Shown here piece after piece: positions 5,003 through 11,045 of a DNA stretch of 11,045 nt. Source of the DNA: Schlesneria sp. (lineage in GTDB: Bacteria > Planctomycetota > Planctomycetia > Planctomycetales > Planctomycetaceae); assembly GCA_025353525.1 (NCBI GenBank), contig JANXOO010000016.1:1-11045 (forward strand), written 5' to 3'. Positions within the stretch are counted from its first letter, which is position 1. Each line of letters begins with the position of its first letter. The notes beneath the pieces are model-generated. The model was not told the DNA's origin. It saw only the letters and a list, made by a program, of their open reading frames with translations, and searched no databases. Both the position numbers and the translations under genes were made by a program.

Positions 5003-7669
<2,667 letters not shown>

Positions 7670-8445: not shown

Positions 8446-8474
8446 TTGACAGACTTTGATGTTGCCGGTACATC
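8446..8474 (+). promoter_or_regulatory. Candidate promoter for the NtrC-like gene
   Basis: TTGACA (8446-8451) is a perfect -35 consensus. The hexamer 17 bases later, TACATC (8469-8474), matches only three of six -10 positions. If used, it gives a leader of about 350 bases containing all the palindromes of this gap. No -24/-12 sigma-54 promoter was found. Confidence 0.3.
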
Positions 8475-8518
8475 TCGCCCGCCTTTCTCCAATTCCAGAA
8501 AACAATTCAAATCACTCG

Positions 8519-8533
8519 CCAGTCATTGACTGG
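8519..8533. promoter_or_regulatory. 15-bp palindrome CCAGTCA-T-TGACTGG
   Basis: Perfect 7-bp arms surround a single central base. A further copy of the half-site TGACTGG is at 8590-8596. The tight one-base centre suggests a protein-binding dyad more than an RNA hairpin. The binding protein is unknown. Confidence 0.4.
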
Positions 8534-8606
8534 AACCGCCAGCCGTTGTCATTGCGATTTGTCGCGATGCCTCGATCGGTTTCCTTCAATGACTGGCACC
8601 TCGGCC

Positions 8607-8618
8607 ACGAACGTTCGT
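8607..8618. promoter_or_regulatory. 12-bp perfect palindrome ACGAACGTTCGT
   Basis: The sequence is fully self-complementary with no spacer. It shares the half-site CGAACG with the palindrome at 8675-8689, about 70 bases downstream. Both lie upstream of the NtrC-like gene and could be operators for one dimeric DNA-binding protein. Confidence 0.4.
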
Positions 8619-8674
8619 TCGTAGTCGAATGCCTTTCTGAATCTCCCAAAACAATTCGTTCCAATCGCAGACCT

Positions 8675-8689
8675 TCGTTCGACGAACGA
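8675..8689. promoter_or_regulatory. 15-bp palindrome TCGTTCG-A-CGAACGA
   Basis: Perfect 7-bp arms surround one central base, and the half-site CGAACG is shared with the palindrome at 8607-8618. It lies about 145 bases upstream of the preferred start of the NtrC-like gene. Confidence 0.4.
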
Positions 8690-8832
8690 GTCACCCGGCC
8701 ATTTGGCTGAACTCCAACGTCAAACAATTCGTTTGCATCGAAGTCGCTCGTGACGCGGGTTTTCCCTTCGTTTCGATCGCCTTGGGTGCGTTCACATCTC
8801 TCGACCAGTTCCTTGCTGATCACGGTGCCATC

Positions 8833-10377
8833 ATGAATCACTCCCATCCCGATGTTATACCCTTCCCGCAACGAACGACTGTCACTCCACCCGCTGCGGC
8901 GGTCGAGGCGGCACCGTCCATTCTGGTCGTCTCGTGCGATCCCGAAATGGCTCGGCGATTGTGCGAGGACAGCCAGACCCTGGGAATGGTTTGCCGGACG
9001 GTGTCGTCCGTCGAAGCGGCTCTCCAGTCCTTGCACACGCAATCGGCAGATATCTGTCTCGTCGGAACGCTGTCAACCGGCGAGACTGTCGCCGGGTTGA
9101 CGAACCAGATTCAGCAAAAGGGATGGTCGACACAGGTGATCTGTGTGGTCTCCCAGGCCTCCGAAGACGGCCCTCAACTCTTTTCGAGTGCCACGGGGGT
9201 CGAACACCTTTCCGAGCCTTATTCGCCAACAAATTTCTCTCGCGTACTGACCGGGGCCAGCCAACGGTCACGGCTGCACGCCGAAAATCGCCGCTTGAAA
9301 CGACAACTCAGCAATCGCAATCTTCGCGACATGGTCGGACACAGTCAGGCCATGCAAGGATTGCGTCAGCAGGTTCAGACGATTGCAGAACAAGCAGGTT
9401 GCGTCCATCTGAAAGGTGAACAGGGAACGGGGGTCGATCTGGTCGCACAGGCGATTCATGATTCCAGCCGTCGTGCTCATCGACCATTCGTAAAAGTTGA
9501 CTGCAGCGTTCTGTCAGCAGAAACCCTGGAAGAGGAACTGTTCGGGCAACTCGAACAGGAATCCGGCGGCATCGCACGACACAAACCGGGTCGCCTGGAG
9601 CAGGCCGACGGCGGCACGCTGTTGCTCGACCAGGTTCAGTACATCGCGTTGCCCGTTCAGAAGCAGTTGGTCAGTCTGCTGCGAGAACAACGCTTCGAAC
9701 ATCCGGAAACGCACGAACGGGTTCGCTTCGATGTCCGATTCATTTTCGGTTCGCACGTGGATCTGGAATCACAGGTTGATCGGGGACTGTTCCGACGCGA
9801 TCTGCACGAAGAAATCTCGGCGTCGGCGATCGAATTACCGACACTCCGCTCGCGTAAAGAAGACATTGGCTCGTTGACCGAGCACTTCCTGCGACGGGTC
9901 GCTGGTCGCGAAGGAAAACCGCCCCGTTCGATCATGATCGAAGCACTGCACGTTTTGCAGAGTTACGACTGGCCGGGCAATGTGCGAGAACTCGAAAACT
10001 TGATCGAACGCGCCTGTGCGCTCGACTGGGGTTCAAAACTGACTGCGGCAATGATCGAGCCGTGGATGTCCAGGGAATGTACCGAGGAAGAAGCCGATGC
10101 ACTTCCCGGTATGACGTTGGCCGAAATGGAACGCAAACTGATCGAAGCCACATTCAACCGGTTTGCCGGCAATCGGGAAAAAACGGCAAAAGCGCTTCAA
10201 ATCGGGATTCGTACACTGTCCGGAAAACTTCGCGAATACGGTTATCCACCACGTGGCGGGCCAGGTTCAAACATCAAAGCGTGGTCTCCGGAAGAAGTAC
10301 CGACTCCGACGATCGCCGTTACACCTGCGATCAACGGCGATGCCGAACCCGATCAATTTGAACGTCGTGCTGCCTAG
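8833..10377 (+). CDS. Degenerate NtrC-like regulator: pseudo-receiver, pseudo-AAA+, Fis-type HTH
   Basis: The 514 residues have the architecture of an NtrC-family sigma-54 activator. Receiver-like domain about 28-150: the acidic pair of ILVVDDEP is ILVVSCDP (S34-C35-D36), the phosphoacceptor Asp position is Gly78, and the conserved Lys is Glu in LSEPYS. AAA+ domain about 170-400: Walker A is GEQGTGVD with Val201 for Lys; the GAFTGA loop is QESGGI (242-247) with length preserved; Walker B ends D266-Q267, not DE; the finger region FRxDLYYRL is FRRDLHEEI, keeping Arg321 but with Glu327 for the second Arg. Retained are ELFG, GRLEQADGGTLLLD, LRSRKEDI and the W380-PGNVRELENLIERA motif. The C-terminal Fis helix-turn-helix (about 446-470) looks functional. 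It probably binds DNA without phosphorylation, ATP hydrolysis or sigma-54 activation, perhaps as a repressor or architectural factor. The start is uncertain: I chose ATG 8833 over an upstream TTG at 8782, and neither has a strong ribosome binding site. Confidence 0.9.
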   Translation: MNHSHPDVIPFPQRTTVTPPAAAVEAAPSILVVSCDPEMARRLCEDSQTLGMVCRTVSSVEAALQSLHTQSADICLVGTLSTGETVAGLTNQIQQKGWSTQVICVVSQASEDGPQLFSSATGVEHLSEPYSPTNFSRVLTGASQRSRLHAENRRLKRQLSNRNLRDMVGHSQAMQGLRQQVQTIAEQAGCVHLKGEQGTGVDLVAQAIHDSSRRAHRPFVKVDCSVLSAETLEEELFGQLEQESGGIARHKPGRLEQADGGTLLLDQVQYIALPVQKQLVSLLREQRFEHPETHERVRFDVRFIFGSHVDLESQVDRGLFRRDLHEEISASAIELPTLRSRKEDIGSLTEHFLRRVAGREGKPPRSIMIEALHVLQSYDWPGNVRELENLIERACALDWGSKLTAAMIEPWMSRECTEEEADALPGMTLAEMERKLIEATFNRFAGNREKTAKALQIGIRTLSGKLREYGYPPRGGPGSNIKAWSPEEVPTPTIAVTPAINGDAEPDQFERRAA

Positions 10378-10612: not shown

Positions 10613-11045
10613 TCAACTTCGTGCGAGTTCCGGTGACTGCAATTGGCCGACGAGCTCTTCGAGTCGTGACAGGCTGCTCTCAATCGACGCCGTATCAACT
10701 GCTCGAATACTGTCCTCCAGCGATCGGGCAGGCTCGGTCAAAACCGGGAAACCCGCCATTCCGCCAGTTCCTTTCATCCAATGCGCCAGCTTTGCCATTC
10801 GCTCCAGATTGTTGTCGTACCTGGCCTGACGCAACTCGCCCATTTTCTTGCGGGCTGTTTCAATGAATTCACAAACGAGTTCCGCAAACGGAGCCTGTTC
10901 GATCGGGAGTTCAGATATCAACATGGAACGAGGTTCCTTCGATGGACTTACCGACTCGTCGACCAAACTCGACGGATTGCCGGAAATTAACGTGGACAAC
11001 CTTGCCAGTAACACGTCCTGGCGAATCGGTTTCGTTAAATAGTCG
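10613..11045 (-). CDS. C-terminal receiver tail plus Hpt domain, likely hybrid histidine kinase; 5'-truncated
   Basis: The open frame runs off the right edge. The first visible residues read DYLTKPIRQDVLLARL, the last strand and helix of a receiver domain with its conserved Lys at visible residue 5. A GTG at 11014 is therefore an internal codon and not the start. After a linker (about residues 20-45) comes an Hpt domain, about 45-140. Its signature AHWMKGTGGMAGF carries the phosphorylatable His88 (codon at 10781-10783), followed by the TEPARSLED helix. 143 residues are visible. A receiver followed by Hpt at the C-terminus is typical of tripartite hybrid sensor kinases of the BarA/ArcB sort, in which phosphate passes His-Asp-His to an external regulator. 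The kinase core would be outside the window; a stand-alone receiver-Hpt protein is the alternative. It is convergent with the degenerate NtrC-like gene. Confidence 0.86.
   Translation of the reverse strand, partial: DYLTKPIRQDVLLARLSTLISGNPSSLVDESVSPSKEPRSMLISELPIEQAPFAELVCEFIETARKKMGELRQARYDNNLERMAKLAHWMKGTGGMAGFPVLTEPARSLEDSIRAVDTASIESSLSRLEELVGQLQSPELARS

Follow-up and report, generated by a model that had tools for sequence, protein, structure and literature searches.

The hexapeptide GAFTGA is the sigma-54 contact of NtrC-type activators. From the DNA-binding end of such proteins also Fis is derived, a lone domain of about 98 amino acids (aa). FlrC and FlbD are described in passages of PMC3930126 as proteins with a receiver–AAA+–Fis layout which activate sigma-54 via GAFTGA and ATP. 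Other NtrC-type proteins have no working GAFTGA; according to parts of PMC3162934 and PMC10274813, sigma-70 promoters are the reported or proposed site of action of VpsR, TyrR, HupR and DhaR, and VpsR reportedly needs no ATP. Caulobacter NtrC also lacks GAFTGA and works at sigma-70 promoters, where its sites often overlap those of the nucleoid-associated GapR (passages in PMC10274813 and PMC12421884).

The protein described here is encoded in a window of 11,045 nucleotides, which is the entire contig C1155 of a planctomycete genome (6.28 Mb, 1559 contigs, 89% complete). It has the same receiver–AAA+–Fis layout as FlrC and FlbD but neither of their means of activation, and its gene lies outside a flagellar cluster, whereas intact relatives resemble FlrC and FlbD also in where their gene lies, at the orthologous place in a flagellar cluster with a kinase next to it (compared with passages of PMC3930126). 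VpsR, TyrR, HupR and DhaR resemble the protein in lacking a working GAFTGA; in the present family receiver, Walker A, Walker B, arginine finger and kinase were lost together and family-wide, and constraint is strongest on the DNA-binding end. Caulobacter NtrC differs in that it keeps and needs its Walker A/B residues and keeps kinase and phosphoacceptor (parts of PMC10274813 and PMC12421884). With Fis the family would share a Fis-type helix-turn-helix (HTH) working independently of an AAA+ motor; unlike Fis, it retains a full-length pseudo-receiver and pseudo-AAA+ domain. VfmH of Dickeya was dropped as a comparison because its ATPase motifs are kept.

The gene and its product

The features of the locus are as follows.

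8446..8474, + strand: candidate sigma-70-like promoter TTGACA-17-TACATC, about 360 nt upstream of the ATG (consensus match, no mapped start)
8833..10377, + strand: coding frame of the pseudo-activator, 514 aa from ATG to TAG, by translation
8905..9252, + strand: pseudo-receiver, residues 25-140; S34, C35, G78 and E128 stand at the positions of the acidic pair, Asp78 and Lys128, all substituted
9064-9066, + strand: Gly78 codon GGA, phosphoacceptor position
9310..9852, + strand: AAA+ core, residues 160-340, which keeps its fold by prediction but not its catalytic set
9433-9435, + strand: Val201 codon GTC, Walker A Lys position
9556-9573, + strand: QESGGI where GAFTGA is expected (loop L1), length unchanged
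9631-9633, + strand: Gln267 codon CAG, Walker B Glu position
9811-9813, + strand: Glu327 codon GAA, second arginine-finger position
9853..10077, + strand: AAA+ lid, residues 341-415
10108..10272, + strand: Fis-type HTH and family-specific tail YGYPPRGGPGSN, residues 426-480, the near-invariant part
10366..10374, + strand: C-terminal Arg-Ala-Ala, degron-like, kept as [AV]A in 126/126 family proteins

The translation of 8833-10377 contains 514 aa and no internal stop, and in the alignment close orthologues begin at the same ATG (8833). Pfam matches are Sigma54_activat (1.9e-38), AAA_lid_14 (1e-22) and HTH_8 (4.3e-10). No Pfam receiver match was obtained on the 514-aa protein; in the structure model, residues 29-141 alternate between strands and helices much as a receiver does. 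Pfam, model and Foldseek agree on the NtrC-type (bEBP) order and fold, namely pseudo-receiver, AAA+ and Fis-type HTH. The model (mean pLDDT 77, pTM 0.54, tail disordered) is matched best by NtrX, NtrC1, FleQ, LuxO and VpsR in Foldseek, and AAA+ domains of FlrC align to it at a TM of 0.90; as modelled, the fold is kept in the window protein.

The requirements for a bEBP are a different matter in this protein: GAFTGA is absent, the ATPase set of Walker A Lys, Walker B Asp-Glu and arginine fingers is incomplete, and the pocket of two-component response regulators (acidic pair, Asp, Lys) is missing. R321 (the first arginine-finger Arg), Walker B Asp266 and the P-loop glycines are retained. An earlier note, made from the letters of the window, had listed five substitutions (Gly78, Val201, Gln267, QESGGI without a change in length, and Glu327), an intact frame of 514 codons, and the persistence of the fold-defining motifs and the Fis HTH. 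All five substitutions lie at the codons given above, the frame is open here as in the family, and the structure prediction which the note had proposed as a follow-up agrees with a retained NtrC-type fold.

Residues 1-14 (8833-8874) form a disordered N-terminus with a conserved peptide; several genera have PD[VI]IPFPxR here, others EPxILRFP. The −35 element of the candidate promoter is conserved within the genus. Promoter and leader together span 8446-8832, and the leader is long and conserved, in orthologues as well; similarly long leaders occur in a distant group (G164, G158, G138, G019).

The neighbours in the window are FeoB, an MMPL/RND protein, aconitase, a QueE-like radical SAM protein and an Hpt protein, none of them flagellar. 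The Hpt-domain protein (10613-11044, minus strand) runs off the contig end and contains a receiver-like stretch before the Hpt domain; its gene, part of a phosphorelay, converges on the regulator gene.

Extent of the family, erosion of motifs and selection

A whole-protein search in 59 relatives yielded orthologues with 66-87% identity in all 14 other genomes of the genus and one with 63% in a neighbouring genus, while others within the family reach 35-45%. The profile of the C-terminal end (HTH and tail) matches 126 of the 170 genomes of the order, all of which fall in one GTDB family (f1), and 36 of 58 genera; the gene is single copy in 124 of the 126 genomes. Family matches score at least 118 bits with a wide gap below, except for second matches in G011 (108.7 bits) and G120 (60.3 bits). 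Across 397 genomes of the class, scores of at least 108 bits occur only inside f1 among the matches listed; the best one listed outside f1 has 89.2 bits, and none of those listed there extends to the tail end. The second match in G011 (L251, contig C63, reverse strand 6617-7096) is a shortened copy 3 kb away with a frame of 160 codons; it has internal losses in AAA+ and HTH, retains the RAA end and, judged by these losses, looks like a decaying duplicate. Databases label the family proteins sigma-54-dependent regulators, a label contradicted by their sequence. A search of the open-licence PMC literature found no paper on this pseudo-activator family, which does not prove absence from print.

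The motif census comprised all 126 family proteins, including G122, a contig-edge fragment without these sites, and G125, which has no receiver. GAFTGA occurs in none (0/126). The Walker A Lys is found in 15/126 and the Walker B Glu in 13/126, and the Lys never together with Asp-Glu (0/126). The first arginine-finger Arg is present in 66/126 and the second in 3/126, the receiver Asp in 72/126, and the full phosphorylation pocket (acidic pair, Asp, Lys) in 0/126. The stretch of loop L1 varies widely in length in the family and has 19 residues in all eight intact orthologues. A separate motif alignment left out L008, L010, the row of L120, which had been read in a wrong frame, and duplicate proteins. 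In a 67-row tree at least five changes are needed for the Walker A Lys, four for the Walker B Glu and eight for the receiver Asp, parsimony counts which cannot separate gain from loss. No member seen retains GAFTGA, and some still have the Walker A Lys, the Walker B Glu or the receiver Asp; thus an order in which the sigma-54 contact was lost first and the motor eroded later would fit.

Throughout the genus (15 members, L016-L030) the Walker A Lys, the Walker B Glu and GAFTGA are missing, so the sequencing artefact at the motif codons which the earlier note had considered is ruled out. The alignment of orthologues, also suggested there, showed that the losses are shared but unequally fixed. 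Gly78 is lineage-specific, since G007 of the same genus has Asp at this position as have 72/126 family proteins; loss of the phosphoacceptor as a family-wide trait was dropped for the same reason.

Among the 15 genus members dN/dS is 0.067 overall, 0.081 in the receiver, 0.056 in AAA+, 0.053 in the lid, 0.006 in HTH and tail and 0.237 in the C-terminal linker, ratios which are rough because synonymous sites are near saturation. Both the pseudo-AAA+ domain and the pseudo-receiver are therefore under purifying selection and are more than idle remnants. Pairwise identity within the family (7626 pairs, without G122 and G125) averages 24% for the receiver, 38% for AAA+, 44% for the lid and 84% for HTH and tail, where a family collected by its HTH favours HTH conservation; the genus set used for dN/dS came from the whole protein. 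The corresponding means among eight intact orthologues (28 pairs) are 55%, 70%, 51% and 66%. The earlier note took this for a pseudo-enzyme under selection rather than a gene in decay, a view borne out by the low dN/dS and by the lack of GAFTGA and of a complete ATPase set in 126/126 proteins, the fragment G122 aside.

A retained AAA+ domain could serve a sigma-70-type activator which, like VpsR, TyrR and HupR, recruits the housekeeping polymerase and holds a ligand in the old nucleotide pocket, instead of repressing or being governed by its amount. The fold matches named above, VpsR included, the P-loop glycines (G198 in 125/126, G195 in 121/126), the low dN/dS of AAA+ and the precedents in passages of PMC3162934 and PMC10274813 speak for this possibility. 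However, residue 201 of the P-loop, Walker B and the arginine fingers vary from genus to genus, unlike one conserved ligand site, and a set of ligand residues was not identified in the AAA+ sequences, which makes such an activator less likely than not.

A search for RpoN was successful in 35 of 36 genomes; the sole miss is the window genome, probably an assembly gap given its completeness of 89%. As RpoN persists, the change lies in the activator. The window genome contains 15 PF00158 matches, several of them with intact motifs, and these intact paralogues, as far as shown, carry other HTH ends. Together with the kept fold and RpoN in the relatives, they would permit a pseudo-subunit in mixed rings with intact NtrC-type proteins, or a decoy occupying enhancers, either of which would damp sigma-54 activation. 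This is improbable: AAA+ interface residues are gone (the second arginine-finger Arg, for example, is left in 3/126), AAA+ is far more variable than the DNA-binding end, and the HTH ends of the intact paralogues are different. Another PF00158 protein of the same genome, L010 (G000:C40:5793-6233), has GTGR at Walker A, no GAFTGA and an unrelated DNA-binding end, and is possibly a second pseudo-activator.

Intact orthologues, the kinase and the flagellar cluster

All motifs are kept in L039-L041, L043, L112, L114, L119, L122 and L125, which are class-level relatives and Pirellulales-labelled records (L122 was labelled Planctomycetales by its depositor). Outside f1, 20 loci from the 62 genomes among the matches listed were sampled; four more of the 62 are L039-L041 and L043. 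GAFTGA or GAFTSA is present in 18 of these 20 loci, and GAFTGA in 8/8 of the earlier intact orthologues. Walker A, GAFT[GS]A, Walker B and arginine-finger patterns were all found in 17/20, the other three being the contig-edge fragments L322 and L329 and a regulator missed by the search pattern (L338). A histidine kinase matches in the flank of 18/20.

The family forms a single clade (SH-aLRT 99) adjoining the intact orthologues in quick trees of 56+8+3 and 56+25+3 rows with several long branches, which took 56 of the 126 family proteins from 35 genera. By this tree and by the gene order described below, it shares common descent with the kinase-paired flagellar-cluster regulator of the relatives sampled, a lineage probably of the FlrC/FlbD type. 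R460, T461, L462, K465, L466, Y469 and G470 of the recognition helix are identical in 126/126 family proteins and 8/8 intact ones, and for this reason both would share an operator. The earlier note had held that orthologues with canonical motifs combined with a high dN/dS would speak for a decaying gene. Canonical orthologues do exist, outside the family only, yet dN/dS is low, which argues for an ancestral change of function and not for decay.

Intact loci have the order TPR protein, FlgN, histidine kinase abutting the regulator, FlgB, FlgC, FliF, FliG and FliI (FlgN, FlgC, FliF, FliG and FliI by Pfam name). The order TPR-FlgN-regulator-FlgB-FlgC-FliF is common to family and intact loci. Flagellar neighbours are present in 61/126 family loci, where FlgN immediately precedes the regulator and a kinase is absent; in the examined flanks of the other 65/126, the window's genus included, a flagellar neighbour was not found. 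The search for a kinase in the 126 family flanks, 110 of them with at least 1.3 kb upstream, gave one weak match 1157 bp away. FlgN adjoins FlgB with no regulator between them in 7 of 20 loci examined from genomes of the order without the gene. From these contexts, loss of the kinase accompanies the dead motor, and some lineages later lost the regulator entirely.

FliF is present in 38 of the 44 gene-less genomes, while neither FliF (two queries) nor FlhA was detected in 12 of the 126 gene-bearing ones, eight of which have a completeness of 90% or more and a contamination of 5% or less; in these tallies unlisted negatives were obtained by subtraction. The FliF search scored up to 8 candidates per genome, so that single misses are possible, and FlhA and PF08345 were fully scored for the 12. 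PF08345 is a poor FliF marker here (61/170 against 143/170 with a purpose-made alignment), and the idea that the gene outlived the flagellum in many genus members, which rested on it, was dropped. Freshwater planctomycetes without flagellar genes have been reported independently (part of PMC6461901). dN/dS is 0.033 in seven genomes without FliF/FlhA and 0.040 in eight flagellate relatives. Taken together, gene and flagellum are only loosely coupled. The window genome itself has two FliF-like genes (G000 contigs C711 and C801) and two FlhA-like genes (C275 and C1120), which suggests two flagellar or secretion systems.

Absence of the gene from 44/170 genomes of the order, the FlgN-FlgB junctions and the second copy in G011 might indicate a gene on its way out, in late decay after loss of function. 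This is highly improbable with open frames, a near-invariant DNA-binding end and a dN/dS as low in genomes without FliF/FlhA as in their flagellate relatives.

A dyad search in 22 upstream regions gave none common to more than two and no better result than shuffled sequences. The scan for sigma-54 promoters before the flagellar TPR gene found matches of 8-9 out of 10 letters in 2/7 intact, 3/15 family and 1/11 gene-less loci.

The C-terminal end and the mode of action

The final residues are Ala-Ala or Val-Ala in 126/126 family proteins, and [RK][AV]A in 118/126. The linker after GGPGSN ranges from 4 to 34 residues, yet the [AV]A end is constant. Such an end is found in 29/689 flanking frames over 150 aa and in 16/365 conserved neighbours. 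It also occurs in 12/27 intact orthologues; the trait thus predates the family and became fixed there. The tmRNA tags of relatives end with LAA in 26/27 and MVA in one, three loci having yielded no tag, so the third-last residue is R/K in the family versus L in the tags. The terminal Ala-Ala matters most for ClpXP, and other cellular proteins bear such ends (passages of PMC7652416). A C-terminal Ala-Ala or similar, as in ssrA-like ClpXP substrates, is thus shared by the whole family, and a ClpX fragment lies at a contig end of the window genome. The end is compatible with control by ClpXP turnover.

At the level of sequence, the family has lost all that a phosphorylated activator of sigma-54 driven by ATP is known to need, and the DNA-binding end is frozen. 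A FlrC/FlbD-type sigma-54 activator has probably become a regulator which binds DNA and needs neither phosphorylation nor ATP nor sigma-54, and whose activity would be set by its amount, likely through promoter and ClpXP. The ancestral protein probably drove flagellum genes via its motor. As the sequences show, GAFTGA, the ATPase set and the phosphorylation pocket were lost or eroded in the family's ancestor, as was the histidine kinase next to the regulator, while the fold was retained and the HTH became nearly invariant and acquired its fixed tail. The resulting protein may work through DNA binding alone, in the form of a stable dimer, at the flagellar operators of its ancestor and perhaps others. 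It could act as a repressor, comparable to FlbD at fliF, or as a sigma-70-type regulator like VpsR and TyrR, sigma-70 action being modelled by VpsR and Caulobacter NtrC (passages of PMC10274813 and PMC12421884); a static repressor or scaffold, as proposed in the earlier note, is plausible. With neither phosphorylation nor an ATP switch, activity would depend on amount, so that the amount itself would be the switch, most likely set by the protein's own promoter and by ClpXP turnover via the (R/K)-A/V-A end. Several observations speak against this reading: the purifying selection on pseudo-AAA+ and pseudo-receiver, the receiver Asp in 72/126 and the Walker A Lys in 15/126, a C-terminal end that partly predates the family and has R/K where the tmRNA tags have L, and the outcome of the dyad search and the sigma-54 promoter scan, neither of which gave a usable site.

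CtrA and TacA of Caulobacter are listed as ClpXP substrates (part of PMC8138137). It is conceivable, though unlikely, that the family protein has become a free-standing Fis-like regulator uncoupled from the flagellum, in which ClpXP proteolysis has taken over control from phosphorylation, a parallel to the proteolytically controlled swarmer-stalk regulators of Caulobacter.

The DNA-binding end is kept almost unchanged even in some species without detected flagellum genes. Single NtrC-type proteins without sigma-54 contact were already known; here at least 36 genera allow the dismantling to be traced, and sister families still contain the ancestor type, intact and paired with a kinase. The pseudo-activator family is real, selected, widespread and misnamed in databases, and counts of planctomycete sigma-54 activators based on domains alone are too high because these proteins are named sigma-54-dependent regulators. 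As a natural experiment, the family can show what role is left to an NtrC-type protein that has lost its motor.
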